DNA of 64,000 nucleotides from Dyella choica (GTDB lineage: Bacteria; Pseudomonadota; Gammaproteobacteria; Xanthomonadales; Rhodanobacteraceae): contig NZ_RYYV01000004.1 of NCBI RefSeq assembly GCF_003977665.1, positions 62,001 through 126,000 of the forward strand, read 5' to 3'. The notes under the pieces are model-generated. The model was given only the letters and a program-made list of their open reading frames with translations. It searched no databases and was not told the origin of the DNA. Below, piece by piece: positions 1 through 16,206 of the stretch. A program made the translations under genes and the position numbers. Within the stretch, counting starts at the first letter, position 1, and every line of letters starts with the position of its first letter.

Positions 1-298
1 CGTCCGTGACGGCACGCACGGTTCTCTCGTCGATGTTGCAGCCGAACTTGTTCCAGCTGTTCCACCCCATCGGCGGCGTCTTGGCCAGGCCGTTGGCGGT
101 ACGCGTCGGATCATGCGACTCCCGGAAGATCGAACGGTTCGGCCCCATCTCCATGTTGAACAACTTCTGGCTGTCCGGCTCGTTGCCCGGCGGCGTCTGC
201 GCCGAAACTCGCACAGCCGGCGCCAATAGGAGCGACAGCACCACGAGCATGCTGAGCATCCATGGGCGCCAACGGTGGCCAGAATTTGATGGGAACAT
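1..298 (-). CDS. Secreted GH27 alpha-galactosidase, N-terminal part
   Basis: Partial gene running off the left edge. The reverse strand encodes a short basic start, a hydrophobic run ([12 protein letters not shown]) and an Ala-x-Ala-like cleavage region (VSAQ). It then reads [18 protein letters not shown], the hallmark N-terminal motif of family GH27 (clan GH-D) alpha-galactosidases. The family hydrolyses terminal alpha-galactosides; export to the periplasm or outside is inferred from the signal peptide. I chose the ATG at 298 because GGAGA lies about 9 nt upstream. In-frame ATGs further upstream (near 352) and downstream (262) are possible. The catalytic Asp residues lie outside the window. 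Confidence 0.85.
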
Positions 299-714
299 TA
301 TCGATGGTCTCCGAATGCACGGCGCGAAATGCACGGCGTATTTGTCATACATTACTACCATACAAGAGACGCTCAGAAAATTGCTTTTTTGCGGCATGCG
401 GAATGCAGCACATGGCATGCGGAAAACTGCATAAGGAGAAAAATCCGAGGCATCCGAACGTTTCCCATCGGGAAGCAACGTTTAGGAAACGGCACCCTCC
501 CTTGTTTGCAGGGGAGGGCCGGGGTGGGGTTTCACGAGCTTGCGGCAGTGTTTGAGTTCAACGCGAGGTTGCTTCACCCCACCCCAGCCCTCCCCTACTA
601 CACGTAGGGGAGGGAGCCGTTGTTCGCCAGCTGAGACATAACGCTAATCAGGTGCAAGCAGGGGGAGGAGCTTGCTTCAGGCACGGGCGCTCGATAGTCC
701 GCCGCCCTCCCCCA
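299..714. other. Intergenic stretch carrying a long interspersed repeat
   Basis: No credible gene is seen. The part nearest 299 should contain the promoter of the alpha-galactosidase gene. Positions 485-664 hold copy A of the dispersed element described separately, and the remainder up to the P450 stop codon shows nothing recognisable. Confidence 0.6.
485..664 (+). repeat. Interspersed repeat element, copy A (about 180 bp)
   Basis: This stretch is nearly identical to the reverse complement of 45721-45903. It contains two GC-rich hairpins, CCCTCCC...GGGAGGG near 495-515 and CCCTCCCC...GGGGAGGG near 588-614. They flank an inner inverted pair GGGGTGGGG / CCCCACCCC. The shared ends run from GGAAACGGC to AATCAGGTGCAAGCAGGG. 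There is no ORF, so it looks like a non-autonomous (MITE-like or BIME-like) intergenic element. Confidence 0.85.
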
Positions 715-1929
715 TCATGGATCGCCCAACCTGATGCATAGCGTTTCCAGCGATCGAAACAACACGGAGCGGCGCCAGTCAGGAGGCTCGTCGACCAGTT
801 CGGCACGGCACAACACAGGCGCGAGCGACTCGAACGCGGCGCGCGCCTCATGTCGCGCCAGACCGACACCAAGGCACGTATGGATGCCCGCACCGAAAGA
901 GACATGGCGGATCTTCGGTCGGGAAGGATCGAATCGATCCGGATCGCCAACGTCCTGCGGGTCGCGATTGGCCGCCGCGAGGCAGCAGACTACCGAGTCG
1001 CCGGCGCAGAAGCGGTAGCCTTCGCATTCGATGTCCTCGCGAACTACGCGGCCCGCAAGATGGACCGGCGACTCGAAGCGAAGCGTCTCTTCGACCACTG
1101 CAGCCGACCTTTCGGCGGGGTTCGCAGCAAGCTCGACCAATGCGTCCCGATGACGCAGCAGTGAGAGCACGCCGTTGCAGATCAGGTTTCGGCTCGTTTC
1201 CTGGCCCGTAACCAGAATCAGGATGATGGAATCGATGGCTTGCTGTCGGCTCAAGCGGCCGAGCGAGATGGCATTGCCGAGCTGCGCGATCACTGTATTG
1301 GCGTCGCGATCTCCTGCAAGCTTGAGCTGGGCACCGACGTACGCCCGCAGGGTACGCGCCGCCTCTGCGGCGCATGCGTAGACGTCCGGGGAGCGTTTGA
1401 CGTCGAGCGCTTGCGCGAGCGGCTTTGCCCACATCCGTATCCACGGCGCGTCTTCCACGGGAACGCCAACGAACAGGCACAGGCAGGTGAGCACATAGGG
1501 AATCGCATAGTCAGCCATCACGTCGAGGCTCGCACGCTGCTCGATCCGCGCCGTCATGGCACAGGCAATGTCCCGGCATCGGTCGTGCATCACCTGGAGT
1601 GCATCACGCGAAAATGCATCGGCCAGCGCCGACCGCAACGTCGTGTGATACGGGGGGTCGCGAAACATGACCCAGTGGTCAACGAGGTGATAAAGCTCCT
1701 GCAATTCGGGCGGCAGCAGGCCCGGATCGGCGCTGCGATGGCTTTCGCGGCCAAAGCGGCTGTCTGCCAGGATGGCACGCGTCAAGGCATTGCCCAGCAC
1801 GTACCAGCCGCCTTCGATACCCGCATTGACCGGCTTGCCCCAATGAACCGGGGCAATGTTTCGATAGCGCGCGTAGTAGTCGTACGGCGCTTCGTGCAGC
1901 GCTTCGGCGAGTGGATCGAATCGCAGCAT
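715..1929 (-). CDS. Cytochrome P450
   Basis: A 404-residue soluble bacterial P450, normal length for the class. Visible hallmarks are the haem loop FGAGIHTCLGVGLAR with the Cys thiolate ligand near residue 352, the K-helix EETLR motif, and the I-helix stretch TGQETS, where the usual Thr pair is Thr/Ser-like. P450s mono-oxygenate a substrate using electrons from a ferredoxin or flavodoxin. No redox partner is encoded nearby. It is the last gene of a minus-strand run, 39 nt downstream of the di-iron protein gene, so it probably belongs to the same operon as the 2OG oxygenase and the PGLAG-repeat protein. The substrate is unknown. Confidence 0.93.
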   Translation of the reverse strand: MLRFDPLAEALHEAPYDYYARYRNIAPVHWGKPVNAGIEGGWYVLGNALTRAILADSRFGRESHRSADPGLLPPELQELYHLVDHWVMFRDPPYHTTLRSALADAFSRDALQVMHDRCRDIACAMTARIEQRASLDVMADYAIPYVLTCLCLFVGVPVEDAPWIRMWAKPLAQALDVKRSPDVYACAAEAARTLRAYVGAQLKLAGDRDANTVIAQLGNAISLGRLSRQQAIDSIILILVTGQETSRNLICNGVLSLLRHRDALVELAANPAERSAAVVEETLRFESPVHLAGRVVREDIECEGYRFCAGDSVVCCLAAANRDPQDVGDPDRFDPSRPKIRHVSFGAGIHTCLGVGLARHEARAAFESLAPVLCRAELVDEPPDWRRSVLFRSLETLCIRLGDP

Positions 1930-1968
1930 GGTGTCGCGCTCAGGTCGTGCAGGCGACTGCGCTGACGG

Positions 1969-2703
1969 TCACGCGGCCTGGCGCGCTCGTGCATCCCCGT
2001 TGGCAGCAGGCGCCGCATAGAGGTGTAGTTCGTGGAAATAACCACGAAATACGGCGGCAATTTCCCGAATCAGGCCCTCCAGGATTTGCATCGGGTAACG
2101 GCGCGCCTGCATGACCGAACACGCGATGTCGACCATCACATCGTAATGTCCGTCCTTGTCGTCTATGCCGGTGTGAGCGCGGGCGCCTTTGACATGGTCT
2201 TCGGAGAGCGCGGCGCCGGCACGTTCCACCACCTTGCGTGACGCGATCGAGGAATTCCATTCAACGTACAGCGAGTACGCGACAGCCGGAAGCGAGCCGA
2301 ACTCGGCGATTCGTTGCATCAGCAATTGCATCAACACGGTCGTGGCAGGCATCGGCGGCGTGCCGAGCACCGCGGTCTCGGACAAGCCATGAGCCTTCAG
2401 ATCGGCAAGATAGAGCCGGTCATGGTTCATTTCGGTCTCGACATAGTCGGCCCACCGCCTTGCCGCTTCGTAGTCCTCCTGCACCATCGCGGCGAGCGCC
2501 AACGCGTCGGTGGCTGCCGTGGCTCGGATTCGGCGGACAGTTTCGACGCGATGCCGCAGATAGTATTTGATATCGAGCTTCTCTTTCTCGTCGATGAGAT
2601 GGTTGGCGCGTGGAACGGTGGCTCCGAACGTGGACGCCTCTTCGTTCAACAGCTGCTCGATCGCTTGACGCGTAGACTTGAGGACTGATTCGGGCGTTTT
2701 CAT
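1969..2703 (-). CDS. Haem-oxygenase-like di-iron oxidase candidate
   Basis: A 244-residue all-helical protein. I read it as a haem-oxygenase-like di-iron oxidase (HDO, 'iron-containing redox enzyme') from the spacing of candidate ligands: E91 and H94 in ETEMNHD, E148 in YVEWN, then H177 followed by D182-x3-H186 (AHTGIDDKDGH). HDO-fold enzymes oxidise amino acids or alkyl chains in natural-product pathways. The assignment rests on the motif pattern, not on a clear family match. The ATG at 2703 removes an unlikely Ser/Arg-rich extension. The gene lies 52 nt after the 2OG oxygenase gene and 39 nt before the P450, suggesting one transcript. Alternative: a TenA/thiaminase-like helical protein without iron. 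Confidence 0.65.
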   Translation of the reverse strand: MKTPESVLKSTRQAIEQLLNEEASTFGATVPRANHLIDEKEKLDIKYYLRHRVETVRRIRATAATDALALAAMVQEDYEAARRWADYVETEMNHDRLYLADLKAHGLSETAVLGTPPMPATTVLMQLLMQRIAEFGSLPAVAYSLYVEWNSSIASRKVVERAGAALSEDHVKGARAHTGIDDKDGHYDVMVDIACSVMQARRYPMQILEGLIREIAAVFRGYFHELHLYAAPAANGDARARQAA

Positions 2704-2755
2704 GATGACTCGCTTTTCCTCGAATTTTGTGGATGGATTTGGTTTGTCGTAGTTC

Positions 2756-3403
2756 TCACGTTGCGACATTGAAGAAGAAATTCTGCGTGAGCCTGCCATC
2801 ATCCGAACTTCGACCGAATCCGCTCAGTCGCGCATGGAATTGGCGGCTATCGAATACGATGCATCGATTGAAGCGCATGGGTACGGCGGCCAGCTGGTCC
2901 CACTTGCTGTCGATGTCGAAGCCATCTTTCTCAAACGTTTTCAGCAACGTCTCCGGCGTCTTGTTGGTGCGAGCCATCGCTTCGCGCCAAGCGCTAGATT
3001 CGAAGTCAGGCACATCATCCCAGCCTGTCTCACGATGGCGATAGAATGCCGTGCCGCCTTCGCATTGGCTGGGCTCGTTCAAGTAGACGATCGCCGCGTA
3101 GCGCGTCACCATCGAATCGAAGTGAACCCAGGTCTTGCGATCGGGATCGTCCTGCTCTCGCTCGAAGATCAATCGAAACTCCCCAGTTGGCATATGCCAG
3201 TAGATGAGCTTGCGCAACTGGTCTGCAATCAATTCGAGCCCCACCTGGCTGAAGCCGTGTTGAGGCATGGTAAGCTGACCCTTGTAGTACGTTTTTTCCT
3301 GGCTCGATTCCATCTCCTTGAAGGGGAGCGACAGCGCGTAGCGCCGTACGAGGTCCGGATCGGGATAGAAGTTGTCAATGATGCAAAGACGAAGATTGCT
3401 CAT
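2756..3403 (-). CDS. 2OG-Fe(II) oxygenase, DUF6445-like
   Basis: A 215-residue protein with the layout of DUF6445 2-oxoglutarate/iron oxygenases. The N-terminus reads NFYPDPDLVRRYALSLPF. The iron-binding HxD is H94-x-D96 in TWVHFDS, followed by the core strands AAIVYLNEP and GGTAFYRH. The distal His is near residue 190 (QFHARLSGFG), with an Arg about 14 residues later (GRLTQNFFF) suited to bind 2-oxoglutarate. The family is expected to hydroxylate or otherwise oxidise a substrate. The start codon lies inside the end of the upstream NodU-like gene (29 nt overlap), implying translational coupling. The substrate is unknown; the neighbouring proline-rich repeat protein is an attractive but unproven candidate. 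Confidence 0.8.
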   Translation of the reverse strand: MSNLRLCIIDNFYPDPDLVRRYALSLPFKEMESSQEKTYYKGQLTMPQHGFSQVGLELIADQLRKLIYWHMPTGEFRLIFEREQDDPDRKTWVHFDSMVTRYAAIVYLNEPSQCEGGTAFYRHRETGWDDVPDFESSAWREAMARTNKTPETLLKTFEKDGFDIDSKWDQLAAVPMRFNRCIVFDSRQFHARLSGFGRSSDDGRLTQNFFFNVAT

Positions 3404-4154
3404 ATTGCCACCCATATAGTGCGGCACCAAACGCAGTGCCGTCGTGGACCGCAGGTTGGACGAACACTTCGCTTACAGGCAAGGCATGGCGGATGCGTGA
3501 GCACAACGCCTGATTCAGTGCGGGATCGCCCGCCAGGCATAGACAGGTGCAACCGGTCTTCTCCAACGCCAGCGCACTCAAACTCAACATCGTTTCCTCG
3601 AACGAGGATCGCGCGCCCGATGGGTCGAGCTGGTCGCGCGAAACCCGTGCAAGCTTGCAGATGCCACCCGCGCTGGCGTGAAAAATATCCGCCCGCTCAA
3701 GGGGCGGGACGAACGCCCCCGGCGCGCCACCCAACCGGACTGCGCCGCCTTCACTTCCACTGATAATGAGGATGGCGGCTTCATCGTATCCGGATGCGTG
3801 CAGAGCACTATATGCCTGAGCCAATGCAGGGTCCACCACCAGCATGCGCGATTGCGGCGAGCACGGCAGCCGCAACACGCAGTCCGCCACGGTCAGTCTG
3901 CGCGACCGACTCGCTGCGGGGCTTGCGTCGCAAAACACGATCACGTCGACGTCGACGTAGGCAATGCCAGCGCTCGACAGACAATATTCGACGCTTCGCT
4001 CAGGCATGCTCATGGGGTGCAAACCGTAGTCGCCGGGCAATACTTGCTCGCACTGGCCGCTCAACTGCGCCTCCTCGATCGAGACCGGACTGCCCCGCTC
4101 TCCCAGCAGGCAGGCACATGGATGATGCGAGAGAGCGACGCCAAGTGTGTACAC
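3375..4154 (-). CDS. Degenerate NodU-type carbamoyltransferase N-terminal domain
   Basis: A 259-residue protein from a GTG start preceded by AGGGAAG. It resembles only the Kae1-like N-terminal domain of NodU/CmcH O-carbamoyltransferases. It opens with VYTLGVALSHHPCACLL and ends with LCLAGDPALNQ followed by EVFVQPAVHDGTAFGAALYGW, echoing the family blocks LCLAGGVALN and QPAAGDAGGALGAAL. Family members are usually about twice as long because of a C-terminal carbamoyl-adenylate domain, absent here. The metal-binding block, normally HHxxHAASAF, reads DPALAQAYSAL, so the ligand His positions are Pro and Gln. I infer a non-catalytic or repurposed domain. An ATG at 4280 would overlap the upstream gene and lacks support. 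Confidence 0.65.
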   Translation of the reverse strand: MYTLGVALSHHPCACLLGERGSPVSIEEAQLSGQCEQVLPGDYGLHPMSMPERSVEYCLSSAGIAYVDVDVIVFCDASPAASRSRRLTVADCVLRLPCSPQSRMLVVDPALAQAYSALHASGYDEAAILIISGSEGGAVRLGGAPGAFVPPLERADIFHASAGGICKLARVSRDQLDPSGARSSFEETMLSLSALALEKTGCTCLCLAGDPALNQALCSRIRHALPVSEVFVQPAVHDGTAFGAALYGWQYEQSSSLHH

Positions 4155-4225
4155 CGTTTCTTCCCTATTTCGATGGCATGTCGATGTGTCTTCCGCAGCT
4201 CGGCCCGAAAAGTTTCCATCGTTCG

Positions 4226-4606
4226 TCAGACGCCACGGCGTATCGGACCTCCAAGCTTCGCATTCTCTCGTGCGAGGCATTCGCAGGTGTCGATCGTTGC
4301 GCGCAATACGTTTTGCATCGCCCGCATCCCCGCGCCGTGGTGTGACATCAGCTGGTCGAGCAGAGCACCTTCCTCGAATTCGAATGCATAGCGTGTCTTG
4401 GCGGTTTCCCCATAGGCAATGAGACGTTCCGCAAATGCCGGATCGAATGCCACCATCATCAGCAGCTTTTCCAGTTGCGAGAAAGAAGGATCAGCGCGCT
4501 CTTCGGCGGCCTCGGCCGGTGCGCGCGCGCCTGCAGGATCTACCGGCGCCGACGTGTCTGTTGTCGGCGTCGGTAGTGGGGTTAAGGCGCGCGCGTCTTC
4601 GCTCAT
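4226..4606 (-). CDS. Small helical protein of unknown function
   Basis: A 126-residue protein. Residues 1-40 are rich in Pro, Thr and Ala and probably disordered. Residues 41-126 look helical (SQLEKLLMMVAFDPAFAERLIAYG). The phrase FDPAFAERL followed by an acidic EFEEGALLDQL resembles the small LigA-like/Os1348 domains that occur as leaders or accessory proteins in some RiPP clusters. That is a weak resemblance by eye only. It lies 51 nt downstream of the PGLAG-repeat gene and 71 nt upstream of the NodU-like gene, so it is probably co-transcribed. No clear Shine-Dalgarno is visible before the ATG, but an in-frame stop just upstream makes this the first possible ATG. Confidence 0.6.
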   Translation of the reverse strand: MSEDARALTPLPTPTTDTSAPVDPAGARAPAEAAEERADPSFSQLEKLLMMVAFDPAFAERLIAYGETAKTRYAFEFEEGALLDQLMSHHGAGMRAMQNVLRATIDTCECLARENAKLGGPIRRGV

Positions 4607-4657
4607 TTGAAGGGAGGCTGCCTACACCCACGCAGCAGCCTTTCGTTTTTTGTCGCG

Positions 4658-5578
4658 TTACTTCACGACATCCATGGCCACCGGACCGGCAAGGCTCGGC
4701 ACATGGACCCGGAACGTCTGAGATGCCAAGCCCGGATGCTGCGCGGCGAGGCCTACATAACCCGGCGAGAGGCCCGTAACGTGGGGTTGTGCGTAGGCGA
4801 GTCCCGCCAGACCCGGCATGGGGGCAACCAGCCCAGCCAAGCCTGGAATGATCCCGGTCAGACCAGGTGCATAGACCTGTCCCGCCAGACCCGGATTGAA
4901 TCCGGCTAGACCAGGCACATAGCCAAGCCCTCCCAGGCCCGGATGGATCCCGGCTAGACCAGGCGTGTGATAGGCAAGCCCCGCCAGACCCGGGTGGAAT
5001 CCGGCCAGGCCGGGCGTAAAGCCGAGCCCCGCCAGGCCCGGATGGATTCCAGCTAGACCAGGCGTGTAATAAGCAAGCCCCGCCAGACCCGGTTGGAATC
5101 CGGCCAGGCCGGGCGTATAGCCAAGTCCTGCCAGGCCTGGATGGATGCCGGCTAGACCCGGCTGATAGGCAAGCCCCGCCAGACCCGGGTGGAATCCGGC
5201 CAGGCCGGGCGTATAGCCAAGCCCTGCCAGGCCCGGATGGATGCCGGCCAGACCAGGCGTGTGATAGGCAAGCCCCGCCAGACCCGGGTGGAATCCGGCC
5301 AGACCGGGTGTATAGCCTAGCCCTGCCAGGCCCGGATGGATTCCAGCCAGACCAGGCGTGTAATGGGCAAGCCCCGCCAGACCCGGCGCGAATCCTGCCA
5401 GACCGGGCGAGAACGTAAACCCGGGTTGTCCACCCCATCCACCCCAAGGAATGCCACCGGGCACGTTTCCAGGCACGTTTCCGGGCACGTTCCCGGGCAC
5501 ATTTCCAGGCACGTTCCCGGGCACGTTCATGTAACCAGCAAGATTGGGTTGATTGAATTCAGGAATGCCGTAATTCAT
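4658..5578 (-). CDS. PGLAG-repeat, elastin/collagen-like low-complexity protein
   Basis: A 306-residue protein with no signal peptide or membrane segment. The first 18 residues (MNYGIPEFNQPNLAGYMN) are unique sequence. Five VPGN units follow, resembling elastin VPGxG repeats. The body holds more than 20 PGLAG pentapeptides separated by two or three aromatic, His or hydrophobic residues, such as YT, FH, IH and LAYH. These form a higher-order unit of about 33 residues (about 99 bp in the DNA). The C-terminal 50 residues degenerate and end SLAGPVAMDVVK. A strong GGAGGG ribosome site precedes the ATG. It is encoded upstream of three oxygenase genes, so it may be a structural protein or the substrate of Pro, Tyr or His oxidation. 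The function is unknown. Reading frames in other phases here are by-products of the repeats. Confidence 0.82.
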   Translation of the reverse strand: MNYGIPEFNQPNLAGYMNVPGNVPGNVPGNVPGNVPGNVPGGIPWGGWGGQPGFTFSPGLAGFAPGLAGLAHYTPGLAGIHPGLAGLGYTPGLAGFHPGLAGLAYHTPGLAGIHPGLAGLGYTPGLAGFHPGLAGLAYQPGLAGIHPGLAGLGYTPGLAGFQPGLAGLAYYTPGLAGIHPGLAGLGFTPGLAGFHPGLAGLAYHTPGLAGIHPGLGGLGYVPGLAGFNPGLAGQVYAPGLTGIIPGLAGLVAPMPGLAGLAYAQPHVTGLSPGYVGLAAQHPGLASQTFRVHVPSLAGPVAMDVVK

Positions 5579-5785
5579 GTTCCCTCCGTCACATTCATAG
5601 ATGAATGGCGCAGACTGGGTTCCGCATCGGCCTTCGAGCGCCGCGCCTCACCTCGATGCCAATCGGTGAGCGGCACTCAAGAAACTAGCGGCCGCCCCAA
5701 GTTTTTCGCTCGCAGTAACTCCCCGTTGAGGATTGCCCCAGCGGAGGCGTGGCGCACAGCGACAGGTTCGGGAGCGCTTGCTTAC

Positions 5786-6235
5786 TTAGTAGAGGCAGTA
5801 CTGCATGCCGGGCATGGATCCGCCCACAGGGATCCGCATCGGGGCCGGATCTTCAATTTGCGAGACCTGGCGGGTGGCGATGTTGAAATGGACCAGAAAG
5901 CGCGGCGCGAACAAGGAAATCTTCCGTTCCGTGCAGCTGAATTCGAACACGATGCGAGCCTCGTCCGGATCGCTTTCACCGTTCAGGCAATAAGCCGTAC
6001 GAAATACTTCGGCATCGAGCAAGTGCTCGATGAAGTGACTTTGGACTTGTGGATCCTTGAGCGCCTCGATCACGTACGGCCATGACGGGTTCGACGTCGC
6101 CCCAAGCAGCCCTTGCGCATCGGCGACGGCTTTTTCCAGGGCACCGAGGAGTTCAGTTTCCGGCCCGGACGGCTTGCCTTGAAGTTCTGACTCGGGCTCT
6201 CGTGCAACAGATGGGTTTTTCGTACGCTTTTCCAT
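5786..6235 (-). CDS. Hypothetical protein, first gene of the oxygenase locus
   Basis: A 149-residue soluble protein that I do not recognise. The N-terminal 35 residues are polar and probably disordered. A helical part follows (LGALEKAVADAQGLLG, WPYVIEALKDPQVQSHFIEHLL). The C-terminal half looks beta-rich (ARIVFEFSCTERKISLFAPRFLVHFNIATRQVSQIEDP), and the tail is GGSMPGMQYCLY. A near-perfect Shine-Dalgarno (AAGGAGGTGAC) precedes the ATG, indicating high expression. It is 207 nt upstream of the PGLAG-repeat gene on the same strand, and a promoter probably sits in the 289-nt gap before it. A precursor, chaperone or recognition role is only speculation. Confidence 0.7.
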   Translation of the reverse strand: MEKRTKNPSVAREPESELQGKPSGPETELLGALEKAVADAQGLLGATSNPSWPYVIEALKDPQVQSHFIEHLLDAEVFRTAYCLNGESDPDEARIVFEFSCTERKISLFAPRFLVHFNIATRQVSQIEDPAPMRIPVGGSMPGMQYCLY

Positions 6236-6524
6236 GTCACCTCCTTATCATGGTCATGCGACGATCCGTTCGGCATTCAAGATGCGCATCTCTGCGCAAG
6301 ACGGCTATCCGATTGAACGGCCGCCAACGTCTCGCCATCGATTCGACACTGTGCCCAACGACTACGTCTGCGTTCACTACGCCCACGTTCATGACTTGGC
6401 ATGCGAAGGCTGCTAGTGCGACGCTGCTGCGGCACTGCGCCCTCCCTCGGCGTGAGCAAACATTGTCTGGGATGCCGACCGCACAATGAAGGTTCAGATT
6501 CGTATCAGATTCTCGAAATGCGAT

Positions 6525-7451
6525 TCACGCGACCGCGAGCGTGCGGCTCCATGCATGGAGTTGCTCGACACTTGCATTGACTCCGCCGCATACGATGACA
6601 ATTACATTTCTTGCACGTTGCAGCGCCGGCAGATCGGCGTCGAGTGCTGCAACCGATGCGCCACAGGCCGGCTCGACCACTACGCGGTGCTCTTCCAGCA
6701 ATTCAAGGCAGCCGGCGACCGCTGCAGCGTCGCTTACTACCGCGCTCTCGACCGGATGCTGTGTCGCCGCACGCAGCGCCGCGGACGAAACCGCGCGGGC
6801 ACCCAATGAGGTTGCTATGCTGGAAATCGCAGGCAAATTGACCACCCGATTCGCTTTCAGTGCTTGTGCGTAGGAATCCGCACCGACTGTCTCTGCCGCA
6901 ATCACCGGCACGTTGTGCCAGTCATTGCGGCGCAACCCCTCGATAACACCGCACAACAAACCTCCGCCACCCACCGACAGAATGATTGCGTCAGGTTGAG
7001 ACGCCGACCGCGCGATTTCGTCGATCATGGACGCGTGCCCCATCCAAAGCAATTCGTCGTCGAATGGATGAATGAATGCATCATTTTCATGTACAAGACT
7101 GCGTGCGAAGGCATCAGCTTCATTCCAGCTGTCGCCATGAACGATGACTTCAGCGTCTTCCCGTGCAATGAGGCGCCTTGCCCGCTCCGGCGTCGTTTTC
7201 GGTACCACGACAACAACTGGCACGCCGAGCTTGCGCCCTGCATAAGCCACGGCCAAGCCGGCATTACCGCCGGATGATGAAATGAAACGTTCCGCGCCAC
7301 GCTCGCGATAGATCGAACACGCATAGCCCATGCCGCGATTCTTGAACGAACCGGTCGGTTGCCACGCCTCCATTTTTAGAGAAATCGTTTTCATGCAACG
7401 CCTGGACAAGGCTCGTGACTCCAACAGTGGTGTTTCGAAGTGAGTAATCAT
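6525..7451 (-). CDS. PLP-dependent serine/threonine dehydratase-like enzyme
   Basis: A 308-residue fold-type II PLP enzyme. The cofactor lysine is K37 in QPTGSFKNRG. The substrate loop SSGGNAG, the phosphate-binding glycine loop SVGGGGLLCG and the C-terminal VCGG motif are all present. This matches L-serine/L-threonine ammonia-lyases, which produce pyruvate or 2-oxobutyrate plus ammonia. A beta-replacement or amino-acid-modifying role cannot be excluded. The start is set at 7451 because GAGG lies about 6 nt upstream; the 65-residue extension towards 7646 would run into the divergent regulator's promoter. It lies upstream of the oxygenase genes on the same strand but is 289 nt from them, so membership of that operon is uncertain. 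Confidence 0.82.
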   Translation of the reverse strand: MITHFETPLLESRALSRRCMKTISLKMEAWQPTGSFKNRGMGYACSIYRERGAERFISSSGGNAGLAVAYAGRKLGVPVVVVVPKTTPERARRLIAREDAEVIVHGDSWNEADAFARSLVHENDAFIHPFDDELLWMGHASMIDEIARSASQPDAIILSVGGGGLLCGVIEGLRRNDWHNVPVIAAETVGADSYAQALKANRVVNLPAISSIATSLGARAVSSAALRAATQHPVESAVVSDAAAVAGCLELLEEHRVVVEPACGASVAALDADLPALQRARNVIVIVCGGVNASVEQLHAWSRTLAVA

Positions 7452-7582
7452 GTCACCCTCGGTGTTGAATCGATCCAAATGGCTGTCGACACGAAAATTT
7501 CTGAACACCCTCTTCTGCTTTTGCTCGTGGTCTTGTAGGCGAGCGACGCGCAGTATATAAATTGTGCACTGAAAGGGGTTCG

Positions 7583-8290
7583 ATGGTTTGTGGCGCTTGT
7601 GAAACGGAAGTAACGTCAACATCTCCGCACACTTCAGGACATCCATTCGCCGTGACTACCACTGGTCGCGATACGTTTGAGGGTGCTCGCACACAAGGCC
7701 GCGTTGTTCTTGAGGCGGAGCTGCTGAAGCATTTGCGATATAGCCGCCAACTCAGCCAGGACGAATTGGCGAACGAATGTTCTCTGCGACACATCAGGGT
7801 GTCGATTTCATCGATCAAGCGAGCGGAAACCAGCAAGCCGGTCTTGTTCAGAATCGCCCGCGAACTGGCACGTTTCTTTGATGTTCCCGCTGAGCAGCTG
7901 ATCTGCAGCAATGCGCCCGAAGCGAGTAATGGCAAGGCTTTGGAGCATGGAGCGCCCCAGTTTGTCGTCCGTGAAGAACTGGCGAAAGTCAACGCGATCG
8001 ACGCACCGCACGCCTATCCAAACACCCTGGAAGCGCGCGACGAGCTGCGCAGCTATGTGGAAGCGCTTTCGCTCGCCAATAAGGCATTGCGCCCGGACTG
8101 TCCGGCCACAGTCCGTAACGAACTCGCCCGTCTCAAAGGGGTGCTCCTGAAACTGCTCGACCTGCCGGAAAATTCGATGCTCTATTTGCTCGCAATGGCC
8201 GAGCTGGCGCAGAACGACGGCGAGCACTGCGAGGCGTGGTGCGAGCTTGCCGACGCGTATCGCCATCTTGGCCTGGAGTCGTTCCAGTAA
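7583..8290 (+). CDS. XRE-family transcriptional regulator
   Basis: A 235-residue protein. An XRE-type helix-turn-helix lies at about residues 40-95 (LEAELLKHLRYSRQLSQDELANECSLRHIRVSISSIKRAE in outline). It is followed by a helical C-terminal region of about 130 residues, probably for dimerisation or ligand sensing. The ATG at 7583 has AAAGGGG at good spacing; an upstream TTG at 7562 is less likely. It is transcribed divergently from the PLP enzyme across 131 bp, so it probably controls that gene and perhaps the oxygenase locus. Confidence 0.8.
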   Translation: MVCGACETEVTSTSPHTSGHPFAVTTTGRDTFEGARTQGRVVLEAELLKHLRYSRQLSQDELANECSLRHIRVSISSIKRAETSKPVLFRIARELARFFDVPAEQLICSNAPEASNGKALEHGAPQFVVREELAKVNAIDAPHAYPNTLEARDELRSYVEALSLANKALRPDCPATVRNELARLKGVLLKLLDLPENSMLYLLAMAELAQNDGEHCEAWCELADAYRHLGLESFQ

Positions 8291-8374
8291 TGGCGGCGGC
8301 GTGCTCGACTTATAGAGCTACTGAACTACAAACTCGACTTCTCCACTTGATCCTGGAGCAAGTCCAACGGCCAA

Positions 8375-8398
8375 TACGTGCACGTGATTGCTCATCAC
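8375..8398 (-). pseudogene. Fragment of a Y1 transposase gene (HUH motif)
   Basis: These 24 bases are identical to 9551-9574 inside the intact transposase and encode the same VMSNHVHV peptide on the minus strand. The flanking bases differ at once. It looks like the relic of a second transposase copy or a gene-conversion tract, and it abuts the left repeat array. Confidence 0.55.
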
Positions 8399-8587
8399 CG
8401 GTCTTTTCTGGACGGTCTTTTCTGGTCTTTTCTGGAGGTCTTTTCTGAGGTCTTTTCTGGACATCCACTATTGGTCTTTTCTGGACATCCACTATTTGAA
8501 CCGCCTAATTCTGGACATCCACTATTTGAACCGCCTAATTCTGGACATCCACTATTTGAACAAGCCTAATTCTGGACATCCACTATT
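8399..8587 (+). repeat. Left iterated repeat array flanking the Y1 transposase
   Basis: The first part is a degenerate run of GGTCTTTTCTGG units. Five copies of CTGGACATCCACTATT follow at 8457, 8481, 8511, 8541 and 8572, with periods of 24, 30, 30 and 31 bp. The spacer in the later units reads TGAACCGCCTAATT. The core GGACATCCAC is the exact reverse complement of the GTGGATGTCC core in the array on the other side of the transposase. Confidence 0.9.
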
Positions 8588-8743
8588 TGAACTGCAAAGC
8601 ACAATCGCCTACAAGCCAGAGGCTGGCTTACATGAACTTGTATGCTTAACCCCTTCAGCGCATCTCTTCGCTGATTTCTGCCACTCAAACTCTTCTTACC
8701 GTCCCTGAAAGATTCCGTCGATTCATCTCCTTCCTGAAACCGG

Positions 8744-9772
8744 TCAAAGTATCTGCTCATTGCCACCACGGAATACTGGACGAATGCCCCGACAGCCCCA
8801 TCCGTAGTCAGGTTGCCTTGCCTTTCCTGCCCCCTTCAGCCAACACTGCCCCAAGGCTCTCGCCTTCGCCACCAGGGACTCCATTGTCCCCACCGCCCGC
8901 CAGTATTGGCTCTCGATACCCAACATTTGCGTTCGCCATTGCCGTTCGCGCAAGCCGAGCTGTGCCAGCACTGCGGGCACCTCCGCTGCGATCGAGCCCC
9001 GCTTGTCATCGCGCACCATCCGGCCACTCCAATCCACCAGTTCCACGTAATCGAGAGTTCGCAACGAAACCACAGGCGCCAGCAACATTCCGGCCAAGGG
9101 GCGCAACGCTTCACTGAGCGAGGTCGCCTTGGTCTGTACATCCTGAAGACGACGGCGAATCGACGTGTGCTCCGAGGCAGTCAGCTCGGTTGCCATGCCT
9201 GCGCGAATGGGGTTTAAATCCACATAAACCATACAAGCCAATACCGCCTGCTCATCCAGTAAGGCCTGGCATTTGAAACGCCCCTCCCAGAAACGCCCCG
9301 TGCAACCGTCCTCGCGGTTGGCCTGGCGGGCAATCGGTTCGTTCAAGCAGCGCATGAACCACGACACGCTGCCCAGCCGACTGCGCAGCTCTACCATCTG
9401 CTCCGAGTCGCCTTGCAGGCGCCGCGCCTTTTCCTGGCACAGTCGCTCGTCAATCGCATTGTCAACCCGAACCGGAAACAACCGAACCCAACGTTCGGCC
9501 ACTTCTTTGTCGGACCAGTTCTTGGACGCCATCGGATTCACATGCATCACTACGTGCACGTGATTGCTCATCACAGCATAGGCATACAGCCCGACCGCAA
9601 AGCATTCCGCCAACTCCAACAGTCGTCTTTCCACCCAAGCCTTCCGATGATCATAAGAGCGACCGTTATACGTGTCTTCCCCGCAAAGGAAAGCGCGGCG
9701 CACGCATCGGGTAACACAGTGGAAGAAGCCCTCTGTTTCCGAGTCGACGATTTGGTTGCGTGGGTAGGCCAT
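8744..9772 (-). CDS. REP/IS200-like Y1 (HUH) transposase
   Basis: A 342-residue protein of the TnpA-REP/COG1943 transposase family. The N-terminal block reads GFFHCVTRCVRRAFLCG. The HUH metal motif is H71-V-H73 within AVMSNHVHVVMHV. The downstream block is GRFWEGRFKCQALLDE, followed by MVYVDLNPIRAGMA, where the Tyr-rich helix normally sits. It is longer than typical TnpA-REP proteins because of a C-terminal extension of about 130 residues. Such enzymes cut and join single-stranded DNA at hairpin or short-repeat sites. The gene is flanked by two five-copy arrays sharing an inverted 10-bp core, which are the likely recognition sequences. It may be a domesticated, non-self-mobilising enzyme. Confidence 0.88.
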   Translation of the reverse strand: MAYPRNQIVDSETEGFFHCVTRCVRRAFLCGEDTYNGRSYDHRKAWVERRLLELAECFAVGLYAYAVMSNHVHVVMHVNPMASKNWSDKEVAERWVRLFPVRVDNAIDERLCQEKARRLQGDSEQMVELRSRLGSVSWFMRCLNEPIARQANREDGCTGRFWEGRFKCQALLDEQAVLACMVYVDLNPIRAGMATELTASEHTSIRRRLQDVQTKATSLSEALRPLAGMLLAPVVSLRTLDYVELVDWSGRMVRDDKRGSIAAEVPAVLAQLGLRERQWRTQMLGIESQYWRAVGTMESLVAKARALGQCWLKGAGKARQPDYGWGCRGIRPVFRGGNEQIL

Positions 9773-9848
9773 GACCCCACACTACGCCTCGCCACAAGCC
9801 GCTGATGTCAGTCAACGGCGCGCGCGGCTGTCGGCGAAAAGTCATTTC

Positions 9849-10007
9849 GTGGATGTCCCAATACATGCATCTCCTGTGGATGTCCCAATACATTGTGTGC
9901 CAATACACGTTTCGTGGATGTCCCAATACACCCAACACCCAATACATGTCCTATGCATCTCCTTTCGTGGATGTCCCAATACATTTTCGTGGATGTCCCA
10001 ATACATT
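9849..10007 (+). repeat. Right iterated repeat array flanking the Y1 transposase
   Basis: Five copies of GTGGATGTCCCAATACA start at 9849, 9876, 9914, 9967 and 9989. They are usually preceded by TTTC and separated by 5-36 bp. Partial CCAATACAT units occur between them and continue to about 10040. The core GTGGATGTCC is inverted relative to the left array. The array occupies the 329-bp gap between the transposase start and the autotransporter stop, and no gene is present there. Confidence 0.9.
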
Positions 10008-10101
10008 CATCCCAATACATTCACCAATACATTCAATACATCTTCACTGGTTTTAACTCATTCATGCCCGACACATCCTTGTGTCGAGGCCTGTGAACTG
10101 A

Positions 10102-13100
10102 TCAGAAGTGCTTGGCAAAGCCTACGCTCAGCGCGTTGTCGCTCAGATGATGGGCGAACTGTCCTTGGTAATTCAGGTACAGGCTCCACGATGCCCCCGC
10201 CTTAGCCGTGATACGCGCACCCAAGGTTGCCGTGCCGCGGCCCAGGTTGTCGGCAGGTATTGCGAACATCGTTCCGTCTTGCGCCGTTTCCCTTACCACC
10301 GGTGTGTTGCAGTTGCGCGTGTCGTAGCGATAACCCACTTCGAACTGCGGCAGGTAGCTCACACCTCGCGCCACAAACGCTCGAGAGAATGACACCAACG
10401 CGTAAGGCTGCATGGTGTTATACGTGGCATGCGCGCCGCTCACGGCAAATGCGGAAGCCAACGGGCTATTGCTTGGCACGGTTTCACCAAACGCATCCAG
10501 GGTCTGGTGCTGATATGTCGCACCTGCGGCTGGCGTGATCTGCCACTGCGCCGTCGTCAACGGCCACGCCACCTGCAGGGCTGCTGACGTGATTTCGCCG
10601 CTTGGCGAGGCAATACCGCGGCCCACGCCGGTCTGGCGATACATGTGGTAGCTGCTGTGCGCTTGGTCGACGGCGCCTGACAACACCACCGGACCCAAAT
10701 TGCCGAATGCATATAAACCGCCATGCACGTTGTCGATCGAGCCGTTGCCACCGTTGTGGTCAGAGCCGTTGCTGCGATCAAAACCCACTTCCACGCCGAG
10801 GTGTGCAACATCCGCCACTGCTTGATCCCAGCCACCTTGCAGGCCGAACCGGCTGCTGTTGAGGCCGTTGCTGCCGGTTAGCGAATCGCTGGTGCCACTG
10901 TATTGCACCCACAGACCACTGTCGCAGCCCGAGGTAACGGTATTGCTACGCGATGCATCAGTATTACCGCACGCTGCTTCGGTAGAGCGCAGCGTTGCAT
11001 CGATTACTGTGGCGAGCGATTGTCTGCCAGCCAGGCCAGCGTCCTGCATCAAGTTAGTGTACAGGCTGGCGTCATGCGGTGCGACCACAGTATGCGCCGT
11101 CGTTGGGGTCGTAGTGGGAGTTGGGGTCGGTGCCGGTGCCGGTGCCGGCGTTGGAGTCGGCGATGGAGTGGGCGTTGGCGTGGCTGCTGTTCCCAGCGTC
11201 AATTGAACCTGCGTCGCACTGTACGAGAGCTTCGTATCGAGCCCTGTCGGCACCGAGCCAGTCGATGTGGTCGAAGCAAACTGTCCGCTCAGCGACTTGG
11301 CCTGCACCAGCGTGAAGTTCGCGCTGTTGTAGGTGCCTGGCGCATAAATCAGGTTCAGCGCGCCTGCAAGGCTGGCGTTGCCTGTTATCACCAGTTCGGA
11401 AGCCTGCGTGGGTGTTACGTCGATCTGCAAGCTCGCATCGGCGTTCTGGGTGTAGTTGCCGTTGATGGTCAGTGCGCCGAGCGAACCACCCGGCCAGACC
11501 GAACCATCACTGGTTACGTTACCGTTGATGGTGCCGTGGCCTCGCAAGGTTCCACCTTCATCCAGCTTCACGCTACTTTGAATCGAAGCGTTGGCATGCA
11601 AGCCGTCGCCCACTTCCAAGGTGCCGGACTGAACTGTAGTACCACCGGTGTAGGTGTTCACGCCATTCATCACCAACGTGCCGACGCCGATCTGCGCCAC
11701 GCTGCCGCTGCCGCTGATCACCGAACTGTAGGTCACCGTATCCGCACGATCGAACGCCAGCGCACCGTTGTTCACAACGTTACCGACGAAGGCGCCTGCG
11801 GTGCCGCCATTACCCAACTGCAACGTGCCGGCATTGATCGTGGTGCCACCGCTGTAGCTGTTGGTCCCAGTCAATACCAAGGTCCCACTGCCTTGCTGGA
11901 CCACGCTGCCGCTGCCGGAGATTGCACCGCCAAAACTTGCGCCACCACTGCGATCGAACGCCAGCGTCCCCGTGTCGAGGACATCGCCGGCGAGGGAACC
12001 CGTCGCACCGCCATTGCCAAGCTGCAAGGTAGCGCCCGCAGTGATCAGGGTTCCGCCGGTGTAGCTGTTTGCCCCCATCAGCACTTCCTTGCCACTGGCC
12101 AGTATCAATTCGCCGTGGCCCTGGACGGTGCCGGCGAAACTTCCACTGGCGCGAGAAAGGATCAGCAGCTGGCTGCCCAGATTCACCGAGCCGATGCCGT
12201 CGAGCGACATAATGGACGCCACATTCGTTGCGCCACTGATATCCAATGCGCCGTTGACGATCACATCGCTGGAGGTGGCGATGCTGCCGCTACCGGACAA
12301 GGCGAGCGTGCCGGCATTGATCGTGGTGGTTCCGGTATAGCCGTTGGCGCCCGTGAGCGTCAGCGTGCCTGCGCCGGTCTTGGTCAACGCACCGCCGCCG
12401 GTGATCGCATTCGATACGGTAAAGTCTGCGTCGGTCTGCAAGCCGCCATTGCCAGCAAGGTTGATTGCCCGCGCGGTGGTGAATGCTGCGGTGTTCTCCA
12501 GCGTACCTCCGTTGAACGTAATACCGGCGGACGTCGCACCCAGGTTGGCGTCACTCGCCACGGACACGGTGCCACCATTGATCGTAGTGCCACCGGTGTA
12601 AGTGTTATTGCCAGCCAACACCAAGGTGCCGGCATCGGTCTTGGTCAACCCCGCGCTGCCGGTCAGTACGTTGTTGATCGTTGCACTCATGCTGGCCGCG
12701 GCACTGCTACCGTCGCCCACACGAATCACCGGCGCGCTGCCATTGCTGCCCACCAATTGCAACGCGCCACCATTCAGTACATAGCCGTTCGATGCGAACT
12801 GCAAACCCGTGGCCTGGACCCCGCCCGCACTGGCGTCCACCGTCACCGTGCCTGCGCTGCCGCCGAAAATGGCGAAGCCAGGCTGCGGCTGCTGCATGAT
12901 ATTCGGCACGCTGCCGGTCGCATTGGTCCATTGCTGCGTTGCGTTGGACCACGTGCCGGTGCCGCCCCCCATCTGCGTTGAAGACGCCTGGCCATTGGCG
13001 TTCCAGAAGTTCAGCGTCAGGCCAGTGGTATCGATCAGGTTGATTTGCTTCTGCCCTGTCAGGGTCTGCAATTGCAAAGTCTCGCCGGCTGGCGTGGTGC

Positions 13101-16100
13101 CCAGCGTCAGGCCGCCGTTGGTTTCACTCAACGTGCCGCCATAAGTGAGTACGTTGTACAAGCCCGGCCCCATGCCGCCGGCATCGGTGACGTTGAGCGT
13201 GGCTCCATTGAGCGAAAGGTTGCCGCCGACATGCACGCTGTCGCCGGTACCGGTGGTCTGAAAGTTCGCACCCGGCGCGCCGAACTCGTAGTTCAGCCCG
13301 CCGCCTTGGGCCAGGTTGAGGTCGCCATCGACGGTAAGCGTGCTGATGGAATAGCCTGGAGCCAGGTAGCCGCCGCCCAACACATTGACGCTACCTCCGA
13401 TGGTGCCATGACCGCGCAGCGTCGCGCCGCCGTCCACCGTCACGTTGCCGCCCAAGGCCGCGCCATTGCCGGCCGCGCTGCCGACGACCAAGGTACCGCT
13501 CGCCACCGTCGTGCTGCCGGAGAAGGCGTTGCTGTTGCCCTCAAGTATCAGCGATCCGCTGCCGGTGTGGCTCAACGAACCGTTGCCACTGACCACGCCG
13601 AAATAAACGCTGTTGCTGTTGTCCGTGATCTGCAGCGTGGTACCGTTGAGCTGAAGCGTACCGGCGCCATTGAGCGATGTAATCTGTTGCGACGCGTTGG
13701 CGAAGACAACTTGCGAACCGTCGGCGATGGACAAATCGCCGGTGCCGAGGCTGCCGCCGGACACCACCGACAGATTTCCGCTGTTCACCCAGGTGCCGCC
13801 GGTATAGCCGTTGGCCTGGCTCAAGGTCAGGGTGCCCGTGCCTTCCTGGATCAATGCGCCGCTGCCGTTGATCGACCATCCCGCAGTGGCCTGGTCGGAA
13901 TGGTTCCACACCAACGTGCCGTTGTCGTTCATGCCACCGAACGGACCGCCGAAGGAACCCAAGTTGATGGCGTCGGACGTGCCGCCACTGCCCACCCGGA
14001 ACGTCGCACCGTTGGCGATCGTCATGCCGAACAGGTTGCTGGCGCTTCCGGTGTCGAGCAGCGTGCCGCTGCCGGTCACGGTAAGCGTACCTTCCCCGTA
14101 GAAGCCCTGCTGAAGATTCAGCGTTGCGCCGTGGCCGACCGAAATCGTGCCTGATCCATTGAACCCGGCTTGAGTATTGATGACCGCGCTCGTCGTCACG
14201 TCCAGTTCGCCGCTGACGTCGAAGGTGGACGTCGGCGCGGTATTGATGGTTCCGTTCACCGTAAGCACGCCGTTGTGGGCCACGCTCAATTCGGCCATGC
14301 CATTGACGTTGAGGTTGCCGACCACCACGCCAGCCGCGTTGCGGCCATCACCGATTTGCACGATGCCGTTGTCGGCGGTAAGGGTGCTGACCGCTTGCTT
14401 GCCCGTGCCGCCGCTGAACAGGACGTAGCCATTCGTGCTCGCTGGATCGGCGTTGAGCACCAGTTCGCCGCCGCCGCTGATCGCGCCGGTGAGGGCGACT
14501 TCGTTGCTGGCGAAGTTCATGGGGTTGCCCCCATCGGAGTTGAGCGTCCCACCGGCAGCACCGACCACGATGCTTCCAGCGTAAGTCGCTGCACTGCTGT
14601 TGGTGAAATTGAGCGTGCCGCCGTTGAACGTCACCGAGGGACCGAGTTCGGCGCCGTTGGTCGATGACACCGACAACACGCCAGAATTGAGCAACCATCC
14701 TGTCCCACTGCTGTTGGTACCCGTGACCGTCCAGACGGCCGAACCGGATTCCTGCAACGTGCTGAACCCGATGTACTGCGCGCCGCCGAGGCTGCCGGAT
14801 GGCGTGGAAACCACGTTGGTCACGTTAAAGCTGCCGTTTACCGTACCGCCCAGCTTCAACGTGTCGCCACCGGTACTGACGGCATTGCCGCTCAAGCTGG
14901 AGCCCGCTTCCAGCAACAGCGTGTTGCCGCCGCCGGTGAAATTCACCGCGGCAGCCTGGGCGCCGGCCCCGCCATTGCCAAAGCCACCGGAGATGGTGCC
15001 GGCGTTGATGACGGTCGAGTTGCCCGACGCAACGACGCCCGAGCCACCGGCGCCCGCCGCACCACCAACGCCACTACCGGCAGCGCCGCCACTACCCCCA
15101 TTGCCACCGGTGATGGTGCCGGTATTCGACACGGTTATGGCCGATCCCGAAACACCGTTGCCGCCTGTGCCTCCGTTGCCGCCAGTCGCTCCACCACCCC
15201 CTGCCGCACCACCAGCGCCACCATTGCCGCCTGTGATGTTGCCCTGATTGGTCAGGGCGAAAGCGGAGCCACCCACACCATCGCCGCCATTGCCACCGAG
15301 CCCTCCGACCCCTCCAATGCCCCCCGTCGCACCGGCGCCACCACTCGATCCGCCGTTACCACCATTGCCGCCGACACTCGCTCCCCCGGACGACACGGTG
15401 AGGTTGAACGCGCTACCGACCGCTCCGTCGCCACCCGAGCCACCACTTCCCCCTGATGCCGTCGAGAAGCCGCTGTCGGCATTGCCACCGGCACCGCCAG
15501 CGCCACCTACATATTGGTCGGTTCCGCCGATGAACATCGGCGAGGAGAATGCCGTTCCGAGGTACTCACCGGCATAACCGCCGCCACCGCCGCCACCACC
15601 ACCACCGCCGGCGCCGCCCGTACCGCCCGCACCACCGGCTGCCCAACCTTGATAGGCGCTGCCACCCGCACCGCCCGCATAGAGATTGAACGGGGTGTAA
15701 GAACCGCCGCCGCCACCGCCGCCGCCGCCGGCGGTACCTTGGCCGCCGACCTCGTACATATCCCCACCCAATCCCCCCGCAGAGGGCGAAGTCCCGTTTT
15801 GCGCCGCCGCCCCGCCACCGTTCCCCCCAACGCCCCAGTCGCCTGGGGGCACATTGCGCGCGGTACCGGTCGAACCGCCAAGCCCAGCCGCACCGGTATA
15901 GGTTGTCGCCCAGGCCGAGCCAGGCATGCCGGCCGTCACGGCAAACGCTGCCGTGATCGCGATGGCGATGCGCCCCATCCGGTGCGCGCATCCGCAACGG
16001 GCGCGACGGCCGTCACAGCTGATCCGTGCATTACGGCCTAATTCCGAGACCACCTGCGTTATGCCAAGATGCTGGTTGAAAACGATTCGATAGACGCGGT

Positions 16101-16104: not shown

Positions 16105-16145
16105 TGGATTTCCCTGTTTTTGGCGGCGCGGATTGTCAAAGCGGG

Positions 16146-16164
16146 GCGTCACAGAGGCGTCACA
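16146..16164 (+). promoter_or_regulatory. Direct repeat with 11-bp period, SARP-type operator candidate
   Basis: GCGTCACA occurs at 16146-16153 and again at 16157-16164, exactly 11 bp apart, between the divergent autotransporter and SARP-like regulator genes. Regulators with OmpR-like wHTH plus BTAD domains are known to bind direct repeats with 11-bp periodicity. The link to this regulator is inference. Confidence 0.5.
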
Positions 16165-16206
16165 GGGATTTGCGAAGACAGGCAGGGAGACAGGGGCCCT
16201 GTGGAC

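Follow-up and report, generated by a model that had tools for sequence, protein, structure and literature searches.

A conserved C-terminal pentapeptide ahead of MboA-like di-iron oxidases points to a candidate ribosomal peptide pathway in Dyella choica

What do three putative oxygen-activating enzymes act on when their genes lie beside that of a low-complexity repeat protein? The question is raised by a gene cluster of Dyella choica (assembly GCF_003977665.1, contig NZ_RYYV01000004.1), found on the minus strand at 715–7451 of the window, by which we mean the whole 64,000-nt stretch analysed here (positions 62,001–126,000 of the contig). All eight open reading frames (ORFs) named in a preliminary description of the cluster were confirmed on this strand, namely a cytochrome P450, a haem-oxygenase-like di-iron oxidase (HDO), a DUF6445 protein, a degenerate NodU-type protein, two small proteins, a PGLAG-repeat protein, and a pyridoxal phosphate (PLP) enzyme. 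That description proposed the repeat protein as a substrate. It is indeed the best candidate for at least one of the oxygenases, because its C-terminal pentapeptide MDVVK is matched in 8/8 loci ahead of such HDOs; the repeats themselves did not hold up in this role. The cluster probably encodes a pathway resembling those of ribosomally synthesised and post-translationally modified peptides (RiPPs), in which a ribosomally made tail is oxidised by the HDO at its C-terminal lysine, and the repeats are leader or carrier and not core.

The PGLAG-repeat protein (4658–5578, minus strand; 306 aa with 25 PGL[AGT]G units), the proposed carrier or leader, is rich in Gly (n = 75), Leu (n = 42), Pro (n = 41), and Ala (n = 39), and contains 15 Tyr as well as 14 His. 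Lys, Asp, Arg, and Glu occur once each, and the only Lys and the only Asp both fall within the last five residues, MDVVK, which with the stop codon form the proposed core (4658–4675, minus strand). A repeat protein of Paraburkholderia mimosarum ends in GLDVIK and that of the window in AMDVVK, which prompted a scan of HDO loci for this ending. The motif [MLF]D[VIL][VI]K followed by a stop codon was found upstream of the HDO gene and on its strand in 8/8 loci, belonging to the window, to metagenome-assembled genomes (MAGs) of the Chloroflexi (L016), Rhodobacteraceae (L017), and Mariprofundaceae (L018), to P. mimosarum (L019), Paraburkholderia caribensis (L116), and Burkholderia stagnalis (L131), and to a genome in the family of the Rhodobacteraceae MAG (L127/L133). 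It is absent from the 76 other HDO loci. Six of the eight loci have a distance of −4 to 86 nt from the tail stop codon to the HDO start.

The restriction of the tail to these loci is also evident from the sequences at large. Six-frame translation of 83 sequences (1,560,566 bases; 80 scan loci, the window, L116, and L131) gave seven matches to the motif, one per tail locus and none elsewhere, compared to a mean of 0.15 after shuffling. Another 359,277 bases from 50 further or re-fetched loci contained 15 matches. Of these, 14 repeat places already counted, and the remaining one is new (L127/L133), the tail FDIVK there lying 3 nt into an overlap with the HDO start; the longer L133 stretch contains no second match in 19 kb. 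P. caribensis, B. stagnalis, and L127/L133 were obtained after the motif had been noticed, which counts in its favour. The tighter first pattern, [ML]D[VI][VI]K, gave five matches at five loci in 1,522,920 bases. The 80 loci contain 6,530 open frames of 100 codons or more; three of them, each a carrier described here, finish with D[VIL][VIL]K. In the 5.49-Mb genome of D. choica, a related nucleotide pattern occurs once, at the repeat-protein gene, and a reversed control likewise occurs once. Frames ending in Arg that were picked up with looser patterns in L013/L018, L056, L082, and L094 were set aside as unrelated.

The loci in question are scattered. Searches within the order, class, and phylum of D. 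choica identified related HDOs in one other of 398 genomes (30% identity, different context), none of 369 others, and two others of 398, respectively, giving a first impression of an orphan locus that was abandoned when relatives were found in distant bacteria. A non-exhaustive scan of species genomes with two peptide patterns and a four-row alignment confirmed 91 relatives, and 80 loci were examined. Four of these (L016, L017, L018, and L019) encode HDOs 45–51% identical to that of the window, with L016 and L018 lying no more than about 2 kb from contig ends. The HDO of B. stagnalis is 49% identical and that of L127/L133 32%, and two P. caribensis loci (L116 and L132) are identical to each other over precursor and HDO. 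Within the P. mimosarum genus, an HDO match of some kind (E ≤ 1e-20) turned up in 27 of 144 genomes, and the motif is present in two and absent from 18 of the 20 HDO loci listed. A further 198 + 161 + 78 genomes (E ≤ 1e-30) yielded L127 as the sole new locus. The HDO group had no match in viral contigs, and one of its relatives had none in phages.

In a tree of 41 HDOs, a single clade (support 100/96) unites the seven closest of those that bear the tail, the other 34 rows being 32 of the 76 other scan loci and two Paraburkholderia loci; an earlier 40-row tree had grouped six tail-bearing HDOs (99/97). With L127 added (end branch 4.18), the seven stay together (100/97) and L127 falls outside on a long branch, and a tree constrained to unite all eight is not rejected (approximately unbiased test, p = 0.187). 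An ATP-grasp frame lies near the HDO in many of the 76 other loci (45 within 1.5 kb, 51 within 3 kb). By the same test there is none in L016, which has a weak MvdD-like pre-ATP-grasp match, or in L019; L018 has one at about 1 kb from the HDO, and L017 one 9 kb off. In the window, three phmmer queries matched no ATP-grasp protein among the frames of at least 80 codons across all 64 kb.

The proteins that carry the tail are of several kinds, so that a conserved core is joined to a variable leader, as in RiPP precursors. In P. mimosarum, the carrier is a 290-aa protein with a different, LRDEELRAELADRAARS-type repeat and only 1 Tyr and 2 His; the last residue is the only Lys in both repeat proteins. 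Their internal repetition is extensive (self-repeated 5-mers: window, 157 of 302; L019, 172 of 286) and next to absent from L116 (0/60), L131 (0/60), L016 (0/130), and the L018 transporter frame (2/314). The carriers of L116, L131, and L133 are mutually related and have 64, 64, and 69 aa; in L131 and L133, the precursor stop codon overlaps the HDO start (ATGA). The 134-aa carrier of L016 weakly resembles NIPSNAP (0.0028, below the cut-off), and its end resembles the small carriers, with 3.5e-5 over 20 residues to L133. BLASTP among five carriers (window, L016, L018, L019, and L116; 10 pairs) gave no match in four pairs, weak matches ending at the C-terminus in five, and 1e-4 over the last 34 residues for L116 and L016. 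The tail lacks its own start codon (CTC or TTC instead) and ends a longer frame in L019, L116, L131, and L133. An EamA-like transporter frame in L018 has MDIIK at its 3' end, though the tail there lies behind its own AAAGGAGG; in L017, ATG GAT ATC ATC AAG TAA follows a stop codon and TAGGAGG and is a five-codon frame encoding MDIIK.

Six of the eight loci thus have no repeat protein ahead of the HDO (the 69-aa carrier of L133 judged by reading, and L017 having only the five-codon frame), and the repeat of P. mimosarum differs from that of the window. The suggestion that the repeats are hydroxylated or cross-linked is thus not supported: not being conserved between loci, they are weakened as a substrate, and what is missing from the homologous loci is the repeat, not the tail. 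PGLAG is under purifying selection, because synonymous differences between the five-codon units far exceed nonsynonymous ones (proportions of differences pS 0.541 vs. pN 0.017). A cruder comparison at a fixed offset of 66 residues showed no such contrast (pS 0.594, pN 0.584), probably because the unit lengths vary and the offset is out of register. A search of 197 genomes of the family with the repeat protein returned weak matches in three other genomes (1.4e-5 to 3.1e-4), whose loci lack the tail motif, and two out-of-frame self-matches.

The window HDO (1969–2703, minus strand; 244 aa with the ATG at 2703, searches having used a 237-aa version starting at 2682) matches PF14518 at 5.9e-6 (26.6 bits, slightly below the 28.9 cut-off), and among proteins of solved structure it is most similar in sequence to MboA of mangotoxin biosynthesis (7.7e-16). 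An AlphaFold2 model of the protein has a mean predicted local distance difference test score (pLDDT) of 90.3. Among the 50 Foldseek matches listed for this model, nearly all are titled TenA, UndA, CADD, PqqC, BesC, HrmI, PolF, FlcD, or AetD, the exceptions being two chains of 3bjd with another title; three of the matches listed have E ≤ 0.001, and MboA is not among the 50. Read through the alignment to MboA and the published ligand list, the six Fe ligands (E86, H89, E143, H172, D176, and H181), corresponding to the three His and three carboxylates of MboA-like HDOs, are conserved in the window, as are Tyr82, the proposed base, and the extra ligand Asp90.

According to PMC13185094 (PDB 9ypi/9ypl/9ypm), the residue that MboA oxidises in Leu-Ala-Arg is the C-terminal Arg, with its carboxylate on Fe1. 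The residues of MboA that contact this Arg (Asn57, Asp61, and Asp139), which are a trait of substrate specificity and not of the fold, are Thr, Asp, and Ser in the window. At the first two positions, Thr/Asp is found in 7/8 tail-bearing HDOs and Phe/Asp in L133, and the other 34 rows have Lys/Asp (n = 16), Leu/Glu (n = 10), Ser/His (n = 4), or Asn/Asp (n = 4).

The sequences show that the tail is conserved in place and confined to these loci and that the metal site is kept; by analogy with MboA and VarO, we infer that the side chain of the C-terminal residue is oxidised. The PGLAG-repeat protein would be the ribosomal precursor and its pentapeptide MDVVK the modified part, with the repeats serving as leader, scaffold, or protector. 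The HDO would bind the free C-terminus, placing the carboxylate on Fe1 in the manner of MboA, and oxidise the terminal lysine side chain, most likely by C-beta/C-gamma desaturation, with hydroxylation or alkyne formation as alternatives. Afterwards, the 2-oxoglutarate (2OG)-type enzyme and the P450 might modify this tail as well, or else the product once released. The end of the chain would presumably be cleaved off, either as a short peptide or as a small non-canonical amino acid, and the serine-dehydratase-like enzyme may use it as a substrate. The order of steps, the release, and the roles of the P450, DUF6445, PLP, NodU-like, 149-aa, and 126-aa proteins are conjectural, and those assigned to five of the eight cluster genes are guesses. 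We see an even chance of a wider class, in which [MLF]D[VIL][VI]K-COOH is a portable tag with a dedicated di-iron oxidase, borne by almost any carrier, perhaps a membrane transporter ending in it, or by none (an 18-bp gene), and in which the oxidised lysine, perhaps olefinic or acetylenic, is released as a non-canonical amino acid.

Several observations weigh against the oxidation of a ribosomal lysine tail as proposed here. All six ligands and Tyr82 are kept in 40/40 HDO rows tabulated (Asp90 in 36/40), so that the metal ligands do not mark out the tail-bearing group; moreover, the HDOs of the window, L016, L019, and L127 sit on long branches. The wording of the motif was broadened while loci accumulated (P. 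caribensis required Leu at the third place and B. stagnalis Phe at the first), and the count covers eight loci. In L016, the tail stop codon is 402 nt from the HDO start, and in the window 1,954 nt and three genes separate precursor and HDO. A search for relatives of the repeat protein among 5.8 billion proteins was uninformative, because none of the 7,996 candidates scored reached E ≤ 0.001, the query itself included, and a carrier of about 300 aa is costly and unusual for a pentapeptide. None of the eight genes was recognisable as encoding a protease, exporter, or redox partner, and scans of seven proteins in L016 and four in L133 gave no 2OG enzyme. According to PMC6511847, VarO might work either on the precursor itself or once this has been proteolysed.

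A different reading of the same motif is that the DxxK tail could be a docking or recognition tag for the HDO or another enzyme, with oxidation taking place elsewhere, on Tyr, His, or Pro of the repeats or on a small metabolite. We consider this unlikely. The 15 Tyr and 14 His of the PGLAG protein, the selection that maintains its repeats, and the presence of three oxygen-activating enzymes are in its favour, but the repeat carrier is missing in 6/8 loci, one precursor frame is only five codons long, and the second repeat carrier has just 1 Tyr and 2 His. Furthermore, MboA both binds and oxidises the residue with the free carboxylate (PMC13185094).

The 149-aa protein (5786–6235, minus strand), which ends in PGMQYCLY, offers another candidate precursor. 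The P450 would cross-link it at Y-x-x-Y, and the repeat protein would be an accessory. It has 12 relatives (51–90% identity) in 5.8 billion proteins, one from a Paraburkholderia MAG and the remaining ones, we take it, mostly metagenomic, and the C-terminal YxLY is found in 13/13 family members; a RiPP P450 that links the two Tyr of a YLY motif is described in PMC13192836. However, conservation covers the whole domain and not merely the tail, and a profile that retrieves the protein from its own genome finds nothing in three genomes with HDO and tail. The family is likewise absent from the scanned genome contigs, viral contigs, and plasmids. Its AlphaFold2 model (mean pLDDT 65.7) has no fold match in the PDB with E ≤ 0.001. 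We therefore rate this protein improbable as the true precursor, and it is possibly a partner protein or a second precursor.

That the five-codon frame is a regulatory leader (attenuator) of the HDO gene is very improbable, as the strong hairpins directly following it in L017 (6931–6962, z −4.25) and L018 (9891–9922, z −3.52) have no significant counterpart in the other four of six folded loci (window, z −1.14; L016, −0.50; L116, −0.25; L019, +0.96), and the tails without a start codon in L019, L116, L131, and L133 end longer frames. A hairpin after the tail was accordingly dropped as a general feature; those of L017 and L018 possibly set the precursor-to-enzyme ratio.

All eight ORFs are co-directional, with intergenic distances of −29 to 289 nt, and are transcribed in the order PLP enzyme, 149-aa protein, PGLAG-repeat protein, 126-aa protein, truncated NodU-like protein, DUF6445 protein, HDO, and P450. 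Pfam supported the families given in the preliminary description for the P450, the HDO (below the cut-off), the DUF6445 protein, the NodU fragment, and the PLP enzyme. The latter (6525–7451, minus strand; 308 aa) is a fold-type II, L-serine/threonine dehydratase-like enzyme (PF00291 (PALP), 5.5e-70), with L-serine dehydratases as nearest PDB relatives (4.7e-79), and the P450 (715–1929, minus strand; 404 aa; PF00067, 2.4e-17) has the biotin-biosynthesis P450 3ejb as top PDB match. The 126-aa protein (4226–4606, minus strand) belongs to no family in Pfam or NCBIfam, and both small proteins and the repeat protein had zero matches in these databases at E ≤ 1. Within the eight genes scanned, Pfam and NCBIfam gave no YcaO or TfuA.

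The DUF6445 protein (2756–3403, minus strand; 215 aa; PF20043, 6.4e-19) is a 2OG-Fe(II) oxygenase-like protein with a second Pfam match below the cut-off (2OG-FeII_Oxy_3, 7e-4). H-F-D and a distal H are readable in its translation, consistent with the HxD...H...R that we take to be the 2OG oxygenase motif. By Pfam or annotation, 2OG-type enzymes from four families occur in 6/8 loci: DUF6445 in the window, Cupin_8/JmjC in L019, PhyH in L116 and L131, and TauD in L018/L013 and in L017, there about 8 kb from the HDO. Amino-acid-type enzymes also recur, with the serine dehydratase in the window, an ornithine cyclodeaminase in L019, a class-III aminotransferase in L017, and octopine dehydrogenases in L116, L131, and L133, which suggests a small, amino-acid-like end product.

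In the NodU-like protein (3375–4154, minus strand; 259 aa), a PF02543 match (8.7e-9) covers 62 residues near the C-terminal end. Compared with two full-length copies, it lacks the C-terminal half and the HxxxH pair, which we take to be the metal site of the NodU/TobZ carbamoyltransferases, and by its sequence it is probably a non-catalytic scaffold and not a carbamoyltransferase. Six of ten close family members, the window's included in the ten, have only 149–155 aa; these six relatives (P0018–P0023) lack the middle, and the enzyme domain is apparently shrinking in place. The 149-aa and NodU-like genes probably travel together, because the contigs of the respective relatives P0008 and P0017 match in size (both 23,052).

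Other features were seen in and around these loci. A divergent helix-turn-helix protein (7562–8290, plus strand; HTH_31, 3.7e-4, below the cut-off) is a possible regulator of the cluster. Short direct repeats of CCAGAAAAGACC and GGATGTCC types are visible by eye at 8300–10100 around a transposase-like ORF (8744–9772) with no Pfam match at 0.01, followed by a Gly-rich 2114-aa ORF (10102–16446) that by eye resembles an autotransporter adhesin. Rfam gave no match in positions 1–12000 of the window, and a defence function was discarded, PADLOC having returned just a weak generic 2OG match. Two HDOs each occur in the Rhodobacteraceae and Mariprofundaceae clusters, the second being the C-terminal domain of a 720–736-aa protein (L017:9414–11576 and L013:11508–13718; PF14518, 7.2e-19 and 4.5e-19). 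Another group of MboA-like HDOs, with the Lys/Asp pair, lies near DUF2817 proteins (L015:7467–13696, L029:7468–12816, and L021:5699–6796), in L015 together with two look-alike proteins of 366–398 aa without a Pfam family, and may represent a further peptide pathway. A DUF692 (MNIO) gene beside a small protein is a common RiPP arrangement, and B. stagnalis encodes one with a small hypothetical protein (L131:1226–3138) about 6 kb from the HDO precursor.

The preliminary description knew of no system with this combination of genes. For the eight-gene set we likewise found none in the open-access literature, which also yielded no C-terminal Lys or portable tail for HDOs; the HDO family itself has been described, in MboA and VarO. 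There is an outside chance that this HDO-modified ribosomal peptide pathway, if real, is a class of its own. If the proposed pathway is real, HDO oxidation of a C-terminal lysine would join ribosomal peptide chemistry, 18-bp precursor genes would extend beyond the P450 biarylitides, and the failure to detect such clusters would be explained by a core that is invisible to annotation; the rule of such an HDO plus a tail can be applied to any genome. A five-residue tag oxidised on many carriers would also be a possible protein-labelling handle. Should the tag be portable, MboA-type HDOs would have switched from ligase-made to ribosome-made peptides, and a five-residue tag would provide a way of oxidising the C-terminus of an arbitrary protein.

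Among known systems, the mangotoxin enzyme MboA shares the six Fe ligands, Tyr82, and Asp90 and targets the last residue of a short peptide (PMC13185094). Unlike the proposed precursor, however, the mangotoxin peptide is made by ATP-grasp ligases, ends in Arg, and is served by a dedicated reductase, MboB. The thiovarsolins are closer in having a repetitive ribosomal precursor, VarA, and the HDO-type VarO (about 30% identical to MboA), which is needed for the Arg C-beta/C-gamma double bond (PMC6511847); they are the one ribosomal HDO case in the literature found, including the accessible portion of a 2026 HDO review (PMC13108848). In contrast, their APR core lies inside the repeats and undergoes YcaO/TfuA thioamidation, whereas the window's repeat protein has no APR, a single Arg, and its only Lys outside the repeats at the C-terminus. 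Crocagin, as outlined in PMC10070186, resembles the present cluster in its very small C-terminal core, a 2OG-type oxygenase, and a carbamoyltransferase, but its core is Ile-Tyr-Trp, it has the peptide-binding proteins CgnB and CgnE, for which Pfam has no family, and the NodU-like protein here is truncated; a crocagin-type pathway, considered from that paper, found no support. Finally, the biarylitides and ribosomal pentapeptide nitration share five-codon (18 bp) precursor genes with the loci described here, and nitrotyrosine sets a precedent for a ribosomal pentapeptide giving up a modified residue as a building block (PMC13417212). The biarylitide pathways apply P450 chemistry to aromatic residues, whereas the pentapeptides [MLF]D[VIL][VI]K lack aromatic cross-link positions, and here an HDO, a C-terminal Lys, and large optional carriers take their place.

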